From contig CAIMXQ010000039.1 in assembly GCA_903845465.1 (NCBI GenBank), forward strand, positions 1 through 39,110: a stretch of 39,110 nucleotides of DNA, written 5' to 3'. Of the stretch, positions 16,901-28,559 are shown one piece after another. Position 1 is the stretch's first letter. Each line of letters opens with the position of its first letter. The DNA is from an uncultured Actinomycetes bacterium (GTDB lineage Bacteria > Actinomycetota > Actinomycetes > Nanopelagicales > Nanopelagicaceae). The translations under genes were made by a program, and so were the position numbers. A model generated the notes under the pieces. The model worked only from the letters and a program-made list of their open reading frames with translations. It ran no database searches and was not told the origin of the DNA.

Positions 16901-18559
16901 CTAGTGACCTTCTGTCGTGATGTGTGGGTGGTGCAGATCAAATGCTGGACGCTCTGAACGTATACGTGGCATTGATGTGAAGTTGTGTCGCGGTGGCGGA
17001 CATGAAGTTGCCCATTCGAGAGAAGCTCCATAACCCCATGGATCATCCACTTCGACCTTGGGAGATTTGCGCGTAATCCACACATTGATAAAGAACGGAA
17101 TCATCGATAGCGCTAAAAGGAATGAGCCGATCGTTGAGACTGTATTCATCCATGTAAAGCCGTCGGTCGAAAGGTAATCTGCATAACGGCGAGGGAAACC
17201 CTTGATACCGAGCCAGTGCTGAATCAAGAATGTGAGGTGGAATCCGAAGAAGAGAGTCCAGAAGTGAATCTTTCCTAGTCGCTCGTTGAGCATACGTCCG
17301 GTCATCTTTGGCCACCAGAAATAGAACCCAGCGAACATTGCAAAGACCACTGTTCCGAAGAGTACGTAGTGGAAGTGCGCGACGACGAAGTACGAAGCAG
17401 ATACGGCGAAATCCATTGGAGGCGATGCCAAAATAATTCCAGTCAATCCACCGAAGAGGAATGTCACGAGAAATCCCATAACCCACAACATCGGTGTTTC
17501 GAAGGTGACATGGCCGCGCCACATGGTGCCGATCCAGTTAAAGAATTTCACACCCGTCGGTACACCAATCAGGAAGGTCATAAAGGAGAAGAACGGCAGA
17601 AGTACCTTGCCCGAAGCGAACATGTGGTGGGCCCACACAGCAACAGAGAGCGCGGAGATTGCGATTGTGGCTGCGATCAAACCCTTGTAACCAAAGATTG
17701 GTTTGCGGCTAAAGACCGGCAAGATTTCTGTTGCAATTCCAAAGAACGGAAGCGCGAGAATGTAAACCTCGGGGTGGCCGAAGAACCAGAATAGGTGTTG
17801 CCATAACATCGCTCCACCATTTGCTGGGTCGAAGAGATGCGTGCCAAATAATCGATCAGACTCGAGTCCAAGTAGCGCTGCAGCAAGTGGTGGGAATGCA
17901 AGTAGCACCAAGATGGATGTAAGTAATACGTTCCAAGAGAAGATCGACATACGGAACATCGTCATTCCTGGGGCGCGCATAGTGAAGATCGTCGTAATGA
18001 AGTTGACGCCGCCAAGAATTGTTCCAAGTCCGGAAATTGCAAGTCCCATTACCCAAAGGTCTCCACCAATTCCAGGTGAATATGTCGAGTTAGCAAGAGG
18101 TGCATATGCAGTCCAACCAAATGACGCCGCTCCTCCTGGAGTTAAGAAACCAATGGTTGCTTCGATTGATCCAAAGAAGTAAAGCCAGAACGAGAGCATG
18201 TTCAAACGAGGAAATGCAACATCAGCTGCGCCGATTTGAAGCGGCATGATGACGTTAGCAAATCCAACGAAGAGCGGTGTAGCAAACATCAAGAGCATGA
18301 TGGTTCCGTGCATTGTAAAGATCTGGTTGTACTGCTCGACGCTAAGGAACTGAAGTCCGGGGCGAGCTAGCTCGACGCGGAGTAATAGCGCTAAGAATCC
18401 ACCAATGAGGAACCATGAGAACGAAGTCGCAAGGTAGAGATAGCCAATGCGCTTGTGATCTGTTGAGGTAATCGTCTTAACGAATTGACTGCCTCGCGAA
18501 GTCTTTTCGACTCCTTGACGTGGAATTGAAACTGTTGGACGGTCTGCGATTATCGTCAT
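16901..18559 (-). CDS. ctaD: Cytochrome c oxidase subunit I
   Basis: 552 aa; [51 protein letters not shown]. Confidence 0.97.
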
Positions 18560-19329
18560 GCTGCACTCGCCTTCAATGAGTCAAGATACGTTTGATACTG
18601 CGCTGGAGTTACTACCTTCACCTTAAAGATCATCTGCGAGTGGTTACGTCCGCAGAGAATGTTGCATCGTCCTGGATATTCGCCAAGTTTCTTAGCTGTA
18701 AATTGCAGATGGTTGGTCTCGCCTGGCAAGTTCTGCATTTGAATCATAAAGGCTGGAATCCAGAAACCATGAACCACATCATTTGAAGTCAGAGTAAAGC
18801 GAACGGATTCACCTTGTGGAAGGTAGAGAGTCGGTGGGTTCGACGGAGTTCCGGTTACCACGGCTTGAGAACCAGCTTCGGGGTAAGCGAATTGCCATGA
18901 CCACTGAATGCCCTCTACTGAAATTTCGTGTTTAACCGGAGTGGTCTTATCGGTGACCTTGTTCTCCTTAACTGCGGTGAAAAAGAAAAGAACTGCAACA
19001 ATCAGAAATGGAATTATTGTGTAGAGAATTTCAACAGGGATGTTGTATTGAGTCTGCTTAGGGAATTCACCTTTACTCGCATGTGCGCGATGAAAGACCG
19101 CGGGCCACAAAATGAGAATCAAAGTGATGACACCAACTACTCCGGCAGCGATCCAGGAGTACTGCCACAGTGAGAGAGAAATATCGTTGATACTCGAAAC
19201 GCCCTTTGGAAATCCCAGACCAGAAAGATGTTGAGAGTCGAAGGAGCATCCGCTCAAAAGTAGAAGCGCCGGCGCGATGAGAGCCACGACAAAGACTGGG
19301 CGCAATTTGCGCGGAGCGTGAGGAGACAT
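18556..19329 (-). CDS. ctaC: Cytochrome c oxidase subunit II, lipoprotein
   Basis: Lipobox LLLSGC; two TM segments; CuA region [15 protein letters not shown] and [17 protein letters not shown] 19329 preferred over 19362 (TATCCT-N7-ATG). Confidence 0.93.
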
Positions 19330-19336
19330 GGGGATA

Positions 19337-19342
19337 AGGATA
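19337..19342 (-). promoter_or_regulatory. Putative -10 box of leaderless ctaC
   Basis: TATCCT-tatcccc-ATG. Confidence 0.6.
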
Positions 19343-19352
19343 GTGGCGCGAT

Positions 19353-20438
19353 GTGCATGCACCAGTCGGAGCGAGTAGCGTTCGGCCGGTGGTTCGTGTC
19401 ACAGGAAATTTCACATCAGAGTCCCCACTGCATCCTGCCGCCAGAGAGGCGCTTTTAGCCGCTTTTGACCAAGGGTGGGCCGATCCTAAAAAACTTTCCC
19501 AGAGTTCTGCCAAGGCTGCGATTCTTCGCAATCAATCTATCGAAAATATCGCCACTCGACTTGGCCTCCGAGCAGATTCCATCGAGGTATTGGGCGAACC
19601 AGCCTTTGGCCACTTCCTAGCAATTGCAGGGCTCCTTCGACCAGATAGAACATTTGCGTTTTCTGCAATTGATAAAGGAAAGATTCGAGCCATTGCTCGA
19701 TCACATAAGGGAGCTATCTGCGAACTGGATGTTAACCACTCTGGTCAGATTAATTTTCTCGACGGCAAGCTAGAGAACACCGTTATCTCTTTGCAACTTG
19801 GCAATGGAGAAACTGGAGTAATTCAAGAAATCACTTCTCTCGCGGGATCCCAAAATTTTATCTCTATTGACGCCACTGCATCTGGTCCACGAATACCTCT
19901 TCCATCTCAATGGGATACGGCTCTCTTCGATTCGCAGTCATGGATGGGGCCTAGCGGTTTAGCAATAATGTCCATCAACAATGCAGATGAATATTCATAT
20001 CCGCTTCCTCGGATTGCGCCAATCAAATCTCCCGGGAGTTACTCACTTCCGTTGCTCTTGGCCTCAGCTGTCGCCTTAGAGAATTTTGCTCCCGAAGATT
20101 CAGGAATCAGAAGTTATGCGATTTCCCAATGCGCTGCGATTGAAGGATGCCAGGTCGTAGCACCAGAATCGCCTGCTCTCCCTCACATCTTCTCGGTCAC
20201 CATCGATGGAGTCGCTGCAGAAAATCTTGTGCGAACATTGGCAGAGCGCGAACTCAACGTTGATTCAGGCTCAGCATGTACTCCTGAAGACCTACAACCA
20301 AGCCATGTACTTGCTGCGATGGGCTATGCAACCGATGGACATCTACGATTTACATTACATCCAGGTACAACGAAGAACGATATAGACCAACTCGTAGTTG
20401 GAATTTCAGAAACAGCTGCACACCTACGCAGCAGGTAG
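19353..20438 (+). CDS. NifS/IscS-like (aminotransferase class V fold) protein with degenerate PLP site
   Basis: C-terminal SGSACTPEDLQPSHVLAAMG and RFTLHPGTTKNDID match cysteine desulfurases, but the SxHK-GPKG region reads DSQSWMGPSG. See finding. Confidence 0.82.
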   Translation: MHAPVGASSVRPVVRVTGNFTSESPLHPAAREALLAAFDQGWADPKKLSQSSAKAAILRNQSIENIATRLGLRADSIEVLGEPAFGHFLAIAGLLRPDRTFAFSAIDKGKIRAIARSHKGAICELDVNHSGQINFLDGKLENTVISLQLGNGETGVIQEITSLAGSQNFISIDATASGPRIPLPSQWDTALFDSQSWMGPSGLAIMSINNADEYSYPLPRIAPIKSPGSYSLPLLLASAVALENFAPEDSGIRSYAISQCAAIEGCQVVAPESPALPHIFSVTIDGVAAENLVRTLAERELNVDSGSACTPEDLQPSHVLAAMGYATDGHLRFTLHPGTTKNDIDQLVVGISETAAHLRSR

Positions 20439-21404
20439 ATGTGCCGAAATCTCAGAGGCAGCATCAGCCCCGTAGGCATCTGTAAACCGGGTTACGAACT
20501 CTTCTTTTGTGAATCGATATTCCTGAGTACCAGTTGTCTCAATAACGTAGGTCGCAATCATTGAACCTAATTGCGCGCATCGTTCAAGTGAGAGACCCCA
20601 TGCCAATCCCGCAACAAAACCAGAACGGAAGGAATCGCCGACACCTGTTGGATCAATCTTTGCCTTCTCTTTCGCGCAACCAACTTTGAAGAATGTTCCA
20701 TCAACACTTTCCACACGTGCACCTTCTGAACCCAGTGTGACGATGCGATATTTAACTTGCTCAAGAATTTCATGGTCACTCCAGCCTGTCTTCTGAATCG
20801 CAAGAGCGAGTTCGTACTCGTTCATAAAGAGATAGGTTGCACCAGAAATAAGTCTCTTAATTTCTTCACCACTCATACGAGCCATCTGTTGTGATGGGTC
20901 GGCCGCAACAGCAACGCCAGTAGCGAGGGCTACTTCGGTATGGCGAAGCATCGCTTCGGGGTCATCCGGTGAGACCACCAAGAGGTCAAGTTTTCCGACC
21001 TTATCCATAATGGGTTGGAGCTCGATATTGCGGGCTTCAGACATTGCACCGGGGAAGAATGATGCAATCTGATTGAGTTCGGTATCGGTCGTCACGGTGA
21101 AATGCGCCGTGTGTTGCGATGTAGAAACAAGAGCATGAGATGTGTCGACACCATGTCGAGTCAACCATGCGTCGTAATCAGCGAAGTCTTTTCCTACGGC
21201 TGCGATCAACATTGGATTGAGACCAAGGACCCCGAGACCAAAAGCAATATTGGCTGCACATCCACCGCGTCGAACATCTAGACCATCTACGAGGAATGAG
21301 AGCGAAACTTTTTCCAGTGAACCAGCTACGAGGGAATCAGTGAACTTCCCAGGAAAGGTCATGATGTGATCGAGACCAACCGAACCAGCTACACCAATTT
21401 TCAT
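20424..21404 (-). CDS. PfkB-family carbohydrate/nucleoside kinase
   Basis: 326 aa; GGCAANIAFGLGVLG; signature DPTGVGDSFRSGFVAGL. Confidence 0.9.
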   Translation of the reverse strand: MKIGVAGSVGLDHIMTFPGKFTDSLVAGSLEKVSLSFLVDGLDVRRGGCAANIAFGLGVLGLNPMLIAAVGKDFADYDAWLTRHGVDTSHALVSTSQHTAHFTVTTDTELNQIASFFPGAMSEARNIELQPIMDKVGKLDLLVVSPDDPEAMLRHTEVALATGVAVAADPSQQMARMSGEEIKRLISGATYLFMNEYELALAIQKTGWSDHEILEQVKYRIVTLGSEGARVESVDGTFFKVGCAKEKAKIDPTGVGDSFRSGFVAGLAWGLSLERCAQLGSMIATYVIETTGTQEYRFTKEEFVTRFTDAYGADAASEISAHLPAA

Positions 21405-21443: not shown

Positions 21444-21806
21444 TTAGTTAAATGAATCGCCGCATGCACATGAACCTTGTGCATTTGGATTGTCGATTGT
21501 GAAACCTTGCTTCTCGATTGTGTCGACGAAATCAATTGATGCACCCATGAGATATGGATCGCTCATCTTGTCTACAACAACTTTTACTGCACCGAATTCG
21601 CGAGTGACATCGCCATCTTGATTGCGATCATCAAAGTAGAGCTGGTAACGAAGACCAGAACAGCCACCTGGTTGCACTGCAACGCGGAGGTAAAGATCAT
21701 CGCGTCCCTCTTGTGCAAGGAGGGCAGATACCTTTGCTGCTGCGACATCGGTCAGAGTGATGCCAGTAGTAATCTCGACTGGAGTTGTAGTTGTTTCAGT
21801 AGTCAT
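21444..21806 (-). CDS. erpA: A-type iron-sulfur cluster insertion protein (ErpA/HesB family)
   Basis: QPGGCSGLRYQLYFDD and C-terminal GSCACGDSFN. ATG 21806 preferred over 21812 because of TATTCT-N7-ATG. Confidence 0.92.
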   Translation of the reverse strand: MTTETTTTPVEITTGITLTDVAAAKVSALLAQEGRDDLYLRVAVQPGGCSGLRYQLYFDDRNQDGDVTREFGAVKVVVDKMSDPYLMGASIDFVDTIEKQGFTIDNPNAQGSCACGDSFN

Positions 21807-21813
21807 GTGCACA

Positions 21814-21880: not shown

Positions 21881-23026
21881 ATGTCTATCAGCCTCAGCGA
21901 ACTCCTGATTTTGGGCCAAGGCTCTGATCTGGCATCTGAGCGCGGAGTCTCATGTGCTGGAGAGCTTCCACCTGCAAGTGACCCACATTTAGTCGAACGT
22001 GCAATCGCCGCAAGGGCTGCTCTCGGTTCTCGTGCTTTGATCTTGGGCCATCACTATCAGCGCGATGAAGTCATTCAATTCGCTGATATCACAGGAGATT
22101 CTTTTAAATTGGCACAATCAGCGGCAGCCCAGAGCGATGCTGAATTCATCTTCTTCTGCGGCGTTCACTTTATGGCCGAGAGCGCGGACATCCTTACTTC
22201 ATCGAAGCAGCGCGTGATCCTCCCCGACCTCGCTGCAGGTTGCTCAATGGCCGATATGGCAACAGCCAACCAAGTCAATCAATGCTGGAAAGATCTTGAA
22301 CGAATCGGCGTTGCATCGCGAACTGTTCCTGTTACCTATATGAACTCATCGGCTGCAATCAAAAGTTTCACAGGCGAGCATGGCGGAACAATCTGTACTT
22401 CATCGAATGCACAGAAGAGTTTGGAATGGGCATTTGCTAAAGCTGAGAAGGTTCTCTTCCTTCCAGACCAGCACCTAGGACGAAACACAGCAGTTCTATC
22501 TCTGGGTTTATCTATTGATGATTGCGTTGTGTGGAATCCCTGGAAGCCAATGGGTGGGCTCACGGAAGATCAGATTAAGAACGCAAAGATGATTTTGTGG
22601 CGTGGACATTGTTCAGTACATGGCCGCTTTACTCGCGAGACTGTCGATGAAGTTCGTGCACGCATTCCTGGCGTTAACGTCATTGTTCATCCTGAATGCC
22701 AACATGAAGTTGTCCTGGCTGCTGATGTCGTAGGCAGTACTGAAAAGATTATTCAGGCCGTCACTTCATCTCCCGCCGGAAGCAAGTGGGCAATTGGAAC
22801 TGAGCTCAATCTTGTCTCACGCCTTGCACAGAACAACCCTGATAAAGAGGTCGTATTCCTCGATAAGACGGTCTGCTACTGCTCGACCATGAACCGCATC
22901 GATCTTCCCCATTTGGTATGGGCGATGGAATCAATCGTTTCCGGCCATATCGTCAATGAAATTAAGGTTGATGAGCGTGTGGCGAAATATTCAAAGTTAG
23001 CGCTCGAGCAGATGCTCGCTCTATAG
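21881..23026 (+). CDS. nadA: Quinolinate synthase A
   Basis: ALILGHHYQRDEVIQFADITGDSFKLAQ; FFCGVHFMAESADIL; HPECQHEV; VCYCSTMNRIDL. Confidence 0.97.
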   Translation: MSISLSELLILGQGSDLASERGVSCAGELPPASDPHLVERAIAARAALGSRALILGHHYQRDEVIQFADITGDSFKLAQSAAAQSDAEFIFFCGVHFMAESADILTSSKQRVILPDLAAGCSMADMATANQVNQCWKDLERIGVASRTVPVTYMNSSAAIKSFTGEHGGTICTSSNAQKSLEWAFAKAEKVLFLPDQHLGRNTAVLSLGLSIDDCVVWNPWKPMGGLTEDQIKNAKMILWRGHCSVHGRFTRETVDEVRARIPGVNVIVHPECQHEVVLAADVVGSTEKIIQAVTSSPAGSKWAIGTELNLVSRLAQNNPDKEVVFLDKTVCYCSTMNRIDLPHLVWAMESIVSGHIVNEIKVDERVAKYSKLALEQMLAL

Positions 23027-25408: not shown

Positions 25409-26152
25409 ATGAGAAAGCCACTGCATCCACTGACCTTGTGGATTGCGGCGATACTCCTGGCATTTGGAGTAGTCGCACTCGATAGCGCCTATATCGCTCT
25501 TGCGATCGTGGGTGCAGTGGCAATCTTTGTCTATATTCGCCGTGATGGATCTCCCTGGAATATGAGCTTTGCCCTCTCATTACGAATTGGTGCAACGATC
25601 CTTGCAATTCGTACAGTGGTTGGAGTTTTGATTGGTGTTCCGATACCCGGACGAACTCTCTTTACGATTCCAATTCTCCATCTTCCAACATGGATGCCCG
25701 GAATTCGTATCGGTGGCGCAGTCACTATAGAGAGACTTTCATCTTCCTTACACGAGGGTGTCATCATCGCAGCGATGATCGCCCTCTTCGGAGCGGCTAC
25801 TTCACTGACAAGCCCTCATAGATTGCTTCGCGTAACGCCGTCATTTATCTATGAAATTGGAATCACTCTTGTGATTGCAACATCTCTCTTTCCTCAATTG
25901 GCGACAAGTGTTAGACGTATTCGTACAGCACAAAGATTGCGTGGAACCGAGAAGGTACATCTACGTTCAATCGCTCTTCCGCTTCTGGAAGAGTCACTCG
26001 CACAATCTCTGCAATTGGCGGCATCGATGGATGCCCGCGGTTACGGCATCAGTCGCAAGCGATCTCGATATCGTCCGCAGCAATGGTTATTCAGAGATAG
26101 CGCTTTCGTAGCTGTCACCACGTTGATCACTCTTGCGATGGTGGCGCAATGA
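25409..26152 (+). CDS. ECF transporter transmembrane (T) component, CbiQ/EcfT family
   Basis: Multi-pass protein; RRIRTAQRLRGTEKV and ...SMDARGYGISRKRSRYR coupling motifs. Confidence 0.88.
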   Translation: MRKPLHPLTLWIAAILLAFGVVALDSAYIALAIVGAVAIFVYIRRDGSPWNMSFALSLRIGATILAIRTVVGVLIGVPIPGRTLFTIPILHLPTWMPGIRIGGAVTIERLSSSLHEGVIIAAMIALFGAATSLTSPHRLLRVTPSFIYEIGITLVIATSLFPQLATSVRRIRTAQRLRGTEKVHLRSIALPLLEESLAQSLQLAASMDARGYGISRKRSRYRPQQWLFRDSAFVAVTTLITLAMVAQ

Positions 26153-27753
26153 TTACATTCTCAAATGTCTCACTTCTCTACCCACGCTCAACCAAGACAA
26201 TTCTTGAAGACCTATCTTTTGAAATTGAGGAAGGTGAAATGGTTCTCGTTATGGGCGAAACGGGATCTGGGAAATCTTCACTCTTAAGGCTCGTCAATGG
26301 ACTAGTCCCCCATCACACAGGAGGAATCCTTGCTGGAGATATCTCTGTCGATGGAATCTCCACACGTACTGTTAAGCCTGGCGCTTTTGCACACCTTGTA
26401 GGAATTGTTGGTCAAAATCCCTTAAACGGTTTTGTCACAGATATCGTTGAAGAAGAGCTCGCTTTCAGTATGGAGGCGCTCAATTTCGCACCCGATGTCA
26501 TGCGTAAGAGAGTGGAAGAAGTTCTGGACATCCTTGGATTAACAGCAATACGCCATCGTTCGATCGCAACGCTAAGTGGTGGAGAACAACAGCGAGTGGC
26601 AATCGGAACTGCACTTGTGATGCATCCCAAGGTATTGGTTCTCGATGAACCAACAAGTGCTCTTGACCCAATCGCAGCAGAAGAAGTTCTATCTGTTCTG
26701 CACAGATTGGTCCACGATTTAAGTGTCACTGTGATTATCGCTGAACATAGACTCGAAAGAGTAATTCAATTTGTAGACCGCATCATTCATATTGAAGGAA
26801 ATGGCGAAACATCCATTGGCTTAGCCGAAGACATTTTGAAGCGTGCAGAACTAGTCCCGCCGATTATTCGACTTGCTCGCGCCTTAAACTTAGATGAAAT
26901 CAAAACAAGTGTGCGAGAAGTCCGTAGACAGACTGAAGAAATTCGCACACGGGACTTTCCTGCCACCGTATCCAACGCTCGCGCTTCAACACCCGCGATC
27001 GTTGTCTCTGATATTTCGCATTCCTATAACGGCAAAATTGCGCTGCACAAGACGAGTACGACGATTGGTCACGGAGAAATTGTCGCAATCATGGGCCGTA
27101 ACGGTGCAGGCAAGAGCACTCTCCTGCACGCCATTGTGGGACTACATTCTCCAGATTCGGGTTCAATCACAGTCAATGAGATTGATCCAGTCACACTTAA
27201 AGGTGCCAATCGTCGACGAGCAATTGGCTATGTGCCACAGGAACCTAGTGATCTGCTCTTTTCCCAGAGCGTTGGTGATGAATGTGCGCAAGCCGATCGC
27301 GATAACGATTTAGCGCCGAATGCGACGTGGAAACTTCTCAATTCTCTCGTGCCAAATATTTCTCTCAACACGCACCCCAATGATTTATCTGAGGGTCAGA
27401 GGCTTGCCTTGGTACTGAGCATTGTTCTATCTGCGAGCCCTGAAGTACTTGTCTTAGATGAACCGACTCGAGGTTTGGATTACCGGGCCAAGAATCTCTT
27501 TGCCCTTGCGCTAAAGGAATATGCAACTCAATCAAATCGCCCAGTACTTCTTGCAACGCACGATGTTGAACTTGTGGCAGAGCTTGCAGATCGCGTTCTC
27601 TTCCTCGCTGAAGGTGAAATCGTTGCAGATGGTTCAACTCTCGATGTCCTGCTCTCATCCCCCGCCTTTGCCCCCCAGGTAGCAAAGATTATGTCGCCAA
27701 AGCCTTGGCTTACTGTCTCTGATGTAGTTACAGCGATTGGCAATGCAGAGTGA
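26149..27753 (+). CDS. ECF transporter fused double ATPase (EcfA1-EcfA2)
   Basis: Two ATPase halves: GETGSGKSS/LSGGEQQR/LDEPTSALD and GRNGAGKST/LSEGQRLAL/LDEPTRGLD. Confidence 0.94.
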   Translation: MITFSNVSLLYPRSTKTILEDLSFEIEEGEMVLVMGETGSGKSSLLRLVNGLVPHHTGGILAGDISVDGISTRTVKPGAFAHLVGIVGQNPLNGFVTDIVEEELAFSMEALNFAPDVMRKRVEEVLDILGLTAIRHRSIATLSGGEQQRVAIGTALVMHPKVLVLDEPTSALDPIAAEEVLSVLHRLVHDLSVTVIIAEHRLERVIQFVDRIIHIEGNGETSIGLAEDILKRAELVPPIIRLARALNLDEIKTSVREVRRQTEEIRTRDFPATVSNARASTPAIVVSDISHSYNGKIALHKTSTTIGHGEIVAIMGRNGAGKSTLLHAIVGLHSPDSGSITVNEIDPVTLKGANRRRAIGYVPQEPSDLLFSQSVGDECAQADRDNDLAPNATWKLLNSLVPNISLNTHPNDLSEGQRLALVLSIVLSASPEVLVLDEPTRGLDYRAKNLFALALKEYATQSNRPVLLATHDVELVAELADRVLFLAEGEIVADGSTLDVLLSSPAFAPQVAKIMSPKPWLTVSDVVTAIGNAE

Positions 27754-28559
27754 AGACTTCGCCCATATTTGCCTTCCGCGGTGCAACAGCATTCGCACTT
27801 CTCACAACAAGTGCAATAAGCGCCCTTGGTTTTCTCTGGCCATTTTTCACTTCACACAAAGAGGGCCATCCACAATGGATATTCCTCATTGCAACACCTT
27901 GTGCGCTATTACTCCTATTTATAGGCGTAAGTAATAACGAGTTGGATTCGAAATCAATTGCACTCTTGGCAGTACTTGCAGCACTAATTGCAGCCCTTCG
28001 TCCTATGGGAACAGGCGCAGTAGGTATCGAACCGATGTGGTTCATTCTTATTCTCTCAGCCAGAGTCTTCGGCCCATCTTTTGGATTTCTCTTAGGTGCA
28101 CTCTCAATGTTTCTCTCGGCTTTTATTACAGGTGGCTTTGGCCCGTGGCTTGCCTACCAATCATTTGCAGCAGGATGGATTGGACTTGGTGTTGCTCTCA
28201 TTCCAAAAGCGTTGCGCGGAAAGAAGGAAATTCTCGCTCTCACCTTGTATGGAATTCTCGCCGCTGAATTCTTTGGAATAGCAATGGATCTGCAATTCTG
28301 GCCGTGGGCGCTCGGTGGGGATTCACAACTTTCTTATCTAGCCGGTGCTTCGTTTGCTAGCAATTTTGGCCACTTTTTTACTTACCATTTCTTATCCTCA
28401 ATGGCGTGGGACATTCCACGTGCCTTGTTCACCGTGACACTGATAACTGTCACTGGAATTCCAGTGTTGCACACGCTGCGCCGGGCCTATACCCGAGCAG
28501 CATTTATGACTCCGATCGAATTTATCGAACGTGCGAAGGCACAAGAGGCAGCGCAGTAA
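27750..28559 (+). CDS. ECF transporter substrate-binding (S) component, putative cobalamin or corrinoid specificity
   Basis: 269 aa multi-pass protein overlapping the ATPase stop by 4 bp; RVFGPSFGFLLGALSMFLSAFITGGFGPWLAYQSFAAGWIGLG is S-component-like. Confidence 0.82.
   Translation: MKTSPIFAFRGATAFALLTTSAISALGFLWPFFTSHKEGHPQWIFLIATPCALLLLFIGVSNNELDSKSIALLAVLAALIAALRPMGTGAVGIEPMWFILILSARVFGPSFGFLLGALSMFLSAFITGGFGPWLAYQSFAAGWIGLGVALIPKALRGKKEILALTLYGILAAEFFGIAMDLQFWPWALGGDSQLSYLAGASFASNFGHFFTYHFLSSMAWDIPRALFTVTLITVTGIPVLHTLRRAYTRAAFMTPIEFIERAKAQEAAQ

Follow-up and report, generated by a model that had tools for sequence, protein, structure and literature searches.

The window (the whole stretch of DNA that was analysed, 39,110 nucleotides from a freshwater-type actinobacterium) encodes an IscS/NifS-fold protein without the PLP lysine, which we call PSD. 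Its frame (19353 to 20438, plus strand) is uninterrupted over 361 aa in an ORF scan. The true start is probably GTG 19389 (VVRVTGNF...) rather than 19353, because the orthologous frames L015 and L024 open only there; this start also removes the overlap with the ctaC open reading frame. The features of the locus are the following:

18556 to 19362, minus strand: ctaC, the divergent neighbour, which marks the conserved slot (class-wide synteny)
19389 to 20438 (longest frame from 19353), plus strand: PSD (open reading frame, orthologous frame starts, AlphaFold2 fold that of IscS)
19938 to 19940, plus strand: Ser codon TCA where E. coli IscS has Lys206, the PLP Schiff-base lysine (alignment)
20277 to 20279, plus strand: Cys codon TGT of the sulfur-carrying loop, Cys328 of E. 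coli IscS (alignment; invariant in orthologues)
20424 to 21404, minus strand: PfkB-family kinase (adoK-like), the convergent neighbour, retained when PSD is lost
21444 to 21812, minus strand: erpA, A-type Fe-S carrier (117.2 bits against an ErpA cut-off of 117), retained when PSD is lost
21881 to 23026, plus strand: nadA, quinolinate synthase, a [4Fe-4S] enzyme (TIGR00550, E=3.3e-98), lost together with PSD

The gene order of this slot is conserved, with ctaF-ctaD-ctaC reading away, then PSD, adoK and erpA on the opposite strand, nadA and a DUF3043 gene. Elsewhere in the window (25409 to 28559), there are genes whose translations resemble an ECF-type transporter cassette (membrane component, double ATPase and substrate-specific subunit).

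PLP site and fold of PSD

Alignment to E. coli IscS, whose numbering is used below, places Ser196 of the 361-aa frame at the Schiff-base lysine Lys206. In addition, His205 is replaced by Gln, Ser203 by Asp, His104 by Lys, Thr76 and Gln183 by Ala, and Asn155 by Gly, and retained are Glu156, Asp180 and Cys328 (Cys309 of the frame). Among the PLP contacts, Thr76, His104, Gln183, Ser203 and His205 are thus all replaced and only Asp180 remains. PSD lacks the Schiff-base lysine and other PLP contacts of an active desulfurase but has the sulfur-accepting loop cysteine. The initial annotation had described exactly this combination in an intact frame. Upon re-reading the sequence, its Ser and Cys assignments proved exact to the codon, and its motif readings hold in the ORF scan and in the alignment.

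The Pfam profile Aminotran_5 (PF00266) covers only residues 238-347 of PSD, towards the C-terminus (E=1.2e-12, 47.9 bits versus a cut-off of 21.5), and no NCBIfam model for IscS, NifS or SufS reaches its curated cut-off on PSD, the best being NifS with 64.7 bits versus 530.75. An AlphaFold2 model built with 77 sequences has a mean pLDDT of 94.2; values drop chiefly at the N-terminus and across model residues 291-310, which cover the Cys loop. The IscS fold is fully kept in this predicted structure (Foldseek probability of 1.00 to IscS), and the closest match in the PDB, both in sequence and in fold, is the IscS of Archaeoglobus fulgidus, the fold match being to its complex with IscU. Profile and fold together place PSD in the aminotransferase class V fold superfamily.

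Orthologues in the host family and across the class

Orthologues were taken from the same genus, 14 further genera of the host family and many families of the class. Residues were counted in 145 class-wide sequences (73 from the family and 72 from other families, with a few genomes represented twice). Cys328 and Glu156 are invariant in all of them. Within the family, the Schiff-base position is never Lys (Ser in 53 sequences, Ala in 13, others in 7), Asp180 is invariant, Ser203 is Asp in 64 and His104 is always replaced. The initial annotation had left open whether the two key positions are conserved among orthologues; a lysine in 0 of 73 and a cysteine in 73 of 73 family sequences are far from chance. 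A Schiff base with a different lysine was also considered. The residue that takes the place of His104 is no general substitute, because it is Lys in 21 family sequences but Arg in 49. Together with Asp203, this Arg or Lys may form a salt bridge in the former PLP site.

Pairwise dN/dS values of PSD lie at about 0.07-0.2; the three pairs of lowest dS (0.13-0.39) give 0.11-0.13. The orthologues and these values rule out a one-off pseudogene. Judged from sequence comparison, PSD is a real, maintained protein, neither a one-off nor a decaying gene. The whole host family shares the loss of the PLP site and the retained Cys loop; this combination recurs elsewhere in the class, and purifying selection is evident. 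PSD diverges much faster than its neighbours (about 65% identity among near relatives, versus 90% or more for adoK and erpA), which could reflect a weakly constrained role. Two genomes (G158, L083/L084; G170, L085/L086) contain two differing PSD copies on separate contigs, which could be mixed assemblies or real duplicates.

Most orthologues of the class keep the lysine (57 of the 72 sequences from other families). These lysine-bearing proteins occupy the same ctaC/adoK/erpA slot, often beside or fused to tusA. Losses outside the host family were found in families coded f22, f23, f29, f33, f34, f40, f42 and f46, and also in the named Actinotalea ferrariae, Cellulomonas pakistanensis and Phycicoccus sp. 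Root101. On a quick tree with weak support in places, the lysine was lost at least about five times. The cysteine is kept in all 19 lysine-less proteins from outside the family. The change of Ser203 to Asp is convergent and accompanies lysine loss: it occurs in none of 105 sequences with the lysine and in nine of the 19 without it outside the family (Fisher p=7e-9, a value that ignores relatedness). In some orthologues (L171, L182, L184, L203 and L237), the PLP lysine is kept and the preceding His is lost (AAK, SAK or ARK); these are possibly intermediates toward lysine loss.

Co-occurrence with NadA, TusA and canonical desulfurases

In an order-level sample, 117 genomes encode both PSD and NadA, 32 encode neither and none encodes PSD without NadA; the single genome with NadA and no PSD (G187) has its NadA near a contig end. 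The distribution of nadC nearly follows that of NadA in this sample. Outside the family, all 161 PSD-bearing genomes of the class sample have NadA, and all 13 NadA-less genomes (from families f6, f9, f14, f15, f20, f21, f33 and f39) have no PSD; the Fisher p-value of 4e-6 is an overstatement, because genomes at the class level are not phylogenetically independent. The class counts were made by hand from tables (E<=4e-87), plus G200, which was confirmed by its locus.

The loci without PSD are informative about the neighbours. In 16 PSD-less genomes, ctaC adjoins adoK and erpA adjoins the DUF3043 gene; PSD and nadA are gone, whereas adoK and erpA, which lie between them, stay. The proximity of NadA pointed out in the initial annotation thus gains meaning from co-occurrence, while the adjacency of ctaC, to which it had also drawn attention, tells little, and we rejected a ctaC-linked function, since ctaC persists in PSD-less genomes. 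The joint loss of PSD and nadA within the genus of the window is a single event. A clade of this genus (G063, G015, G073, G074 and others; L110-L125) has lost both nadA and nadC, with no more than weak nadC matches in G136 and G160, which implies dependence on outside NAD precursors.

We inspected 20 genomes that have NadA but gave a weak PSD signal or none. Apart from G200, where PSD is present, and G309, which runs into a contig end, they are of two kinds. The first kind has a nadA-nadC-NifS cluster with a lysine-bearing NifS type and a NadA that is 51-54% identical to that of the window. The second has a distant NadA (28-37% identity) and no desulfurase nearby at the inspected loci. Thus, one NadA type appears to be accompanied by a NifS-family protein, which sits at one of two locations. 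In some actinobacterial genomes (L291-L296, L298-L302 and L305), the gene for the distant NadA often shares a cluster with nadC and has no NifS-type gene close by, and the two NadA types therefore differ in travelling with a desulfurase. By score, G200, G248 and G281 resembled cases of weak or missing PSD, but their loci hold a diverged lysine-less PSD with TusA; G187, G309 and G327, with NadA or adoK close to a contig end, were left unjudged.

A TusA-like gene with a CPxP motif lies directly 3' of PSD, or is fused to it, in much of the class, several genera of the host family included. Fusions include a 516-aa frame (L093) with TusA at 446-513, and are also present at Streptomyces loci. Within the family, TusA was found in 18 of 63 genomes, always immediately 3' of PSD and never in a PSD-less genome; it has been lost in the clade of the window. 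The genome itself encodes a canonical lysine-bearing SufS within a suf cluster (L104), which answers a question raised in the initial annotation. Of an IscS type, the same genome shows an N-terminal fragment where a contig ends (L105); in a close relative this type is complete and lies beside mnmA (L106). Since SufS and the MnmA-linked IscS exist separately, general sulfur supply and tRNA thiolation need not depend on PSD. NadB-like and nadC genes are also present (L308).

Possible role of PSD in NadA maturation

Several known systems resemble PSD in part. A. fulgidus IscS (4eb5, 4hvk) and IscS1 of Methanosarcina acetivorans resemble it in sequence and fold: both have the IscS fold, a replaced PLP lysine and the loop cysteine. 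According to PMC7585200 (citing Marinoni, 2012; Pagnier, 2014; Yamanaka, 2013), the lysine of A. fulgidus IscS is replaced by Asp, desulfurase activity is absent and the cysteine ligates the [2Fe-2S] cluster of IscU. A protein of the PSD kind is therefore not without precedent. The two archaeal proteins are, however, paired with IscU, whereas PSD is bacterial and NadA-linked, has most residues of the PLP pocket replaced, and belongs to a class in which the lysine was lost repeatedly. A tie to NadA is shared with NadS of Corynebacterium glutamicum, a NifS-family protein connected to NadA and its [4Fe-4S] cluster (PMC11995493), and with Bacillus subtilis NifS, whose gene is essential for NAD synthesis by the account in PMC6522883 (citing Sun and Setlow, 1993). 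As in NadS, the occurrence of PSD is tied to NadA, in both the order and the class samples. NadS and B. subtilis NifS are described as PLP desulfurases, and the operon-type NifS proteins that we examined keep HKxGxPKG, whereas PSD has no lysine and is located in the ctaC/adoK slot rather than in a nad operon.

The actinobacterial desulfurase/TusA pairs or fusions (Streptomyces, Microbispora) are direct orthologues of PSD at the same locus, but they keep HKWGGP and other PLP residues, and the clade of the window has no TusA. E. coli IscS (3lvm; IscS-TusA complex 3lvj) shares the fold, the Cys loop and the TusA partnership, but is a PLP-dependent general desulfurase. Plant SufE3 is a fusion of SufE and NadA in which the SufE domain is needed for activity (PMC5890173). 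In line with the role proposed for PSD, it handles sulfur without PLP and is dedicated to quinolinate synthase, but its fold is unrelated and the analogy concerns the role only. We found no earlier description of a lysine-less NadA partner in the literature consulted, which included few subscription papers.

The functional clue that weighs most is the link to NadA. We consider it probable that PSD is a PLP-free Fe-S maturation factor dedicated to NadA, with a cysteine that relays sulfur or ligates a nascent cluster. PSD would descend from a NadA-associated desulfurase of the NifS/IscS type that abandoned PLP chemistry and kept the fold and the mobile Cys loop, and would be devoted to NadA, maturing or repairing its oxygen-labile [4Fe-4S] cluster. 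The invariant cysteine could accept a persulfide from SufS or the MnmA-linked IscS, or through TusA in genomes that have it, and pass it onward; alternatively, it could be a transient ligand of the nascent cluster. The remainder of the fold might dock either NadA or a carrier of Fe-S clusters, for instance ErpA. The residue losses, the invariant cysteine, the purifying selection, the conserved locus and the co-occurrence with NadA are observations; we infer the contact with NadA, the transfer of sulfur or cluster and the absence of PLP binding. Of the roles suggested in the initial annotation (relay, scaffold or regulator), that of a relay, or else of a cluster ligand, dedicated to NadA agrees best with the data. 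Points against this reading are the single loss within the genus, the fast divergence of PSD, the loss of TusA in the clade of the window and the co-loss of NadC. Because NadC is lost with NadA, the link may concern de novo NAD synthesis in general.

Other readings were weighed against a NadA factor. PSD might instead relay sulfur elsewhere (to tRNA thiolation, the molybdenum cofactor or cytochrome oxidase), with TusA as its natural partner and an incidental NadA link. In favour of this are the TusA that adjoins PSD or is fused to it across much of the class, and ctaC as the immediate neighbour. We regard it as rather unlikely, given that the canonical IscS type adjoins mnmA in a close relative, that ctaC, adoK and erpA stay upon loss of PSD whereas nadA goes, and that genomes with a different NadA type have no PSD. 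Non-covalent PLP binding, or binding via another residue, with some remaining desulfurase activity, is improbable. PSD keeps Asp180, whose counterpart in PLP-dependent enzymes of the IscS fold touches the pyridine nitrogen, but the replacement of the five other contacts in the PSD of the window means that those to ring and phosphate are gone too. PDB entry 4eb5 of A. fulgidus IscS, itself lysine-less, is drawn with PLP (PMC9769115), yet for this very protein an absence of desulfurase activity is reported (PMC7585200).

IscS-type enzymes form dimers that share active sites, and PSD, with its fully kept fold, might be a pseudo-subunit that heterodimerises with a canonical IscS or SufS as regulator, its cysteine being structural or regulatory. 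We give this little likelihood, since a strictly invariant cysteine in a flexible loop suits chemistry better than structure, and canonical IscS-type enzymes persist in PSD-less genomes (L107, L108). That PSD is a slowly decaying remnant heading for loss appears very improbable: the nested series from lysine-bearing with TusA, through lysine-less with TusA and lysine-less alone, to a missing gene fits such a course, but dN/dS values of 0.07-0.2 are also found in tusA-less clades, frames are intact and the cysteine is invariant family-wide.

More tentatively than for the NadA role itself, we propose that a desulfurase fold has repeatedly dropped PLP chemistry within one class, becoming a purely cysteine-based Fe-S factor for NadA, and that the convergently rebuilt pocket (Ser203 to Asp) may serve a new ligand or docking. 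If true, two jobs that are usually joined have been separated here, namely the extraction of sulfur from cysteine and the passing on of sulfur or holding of a growing cluster. A family of actinobacteria with small genomes, and strains of the cultured genera Cellulomonas, Actinotalea and Phycicoccus, appear to keep only the second. It would make testable why NadA so often has its own NifS-type or SufE-type helper, and it cautions that an annotation as cysteine desulfurase at this locus is often untenable.
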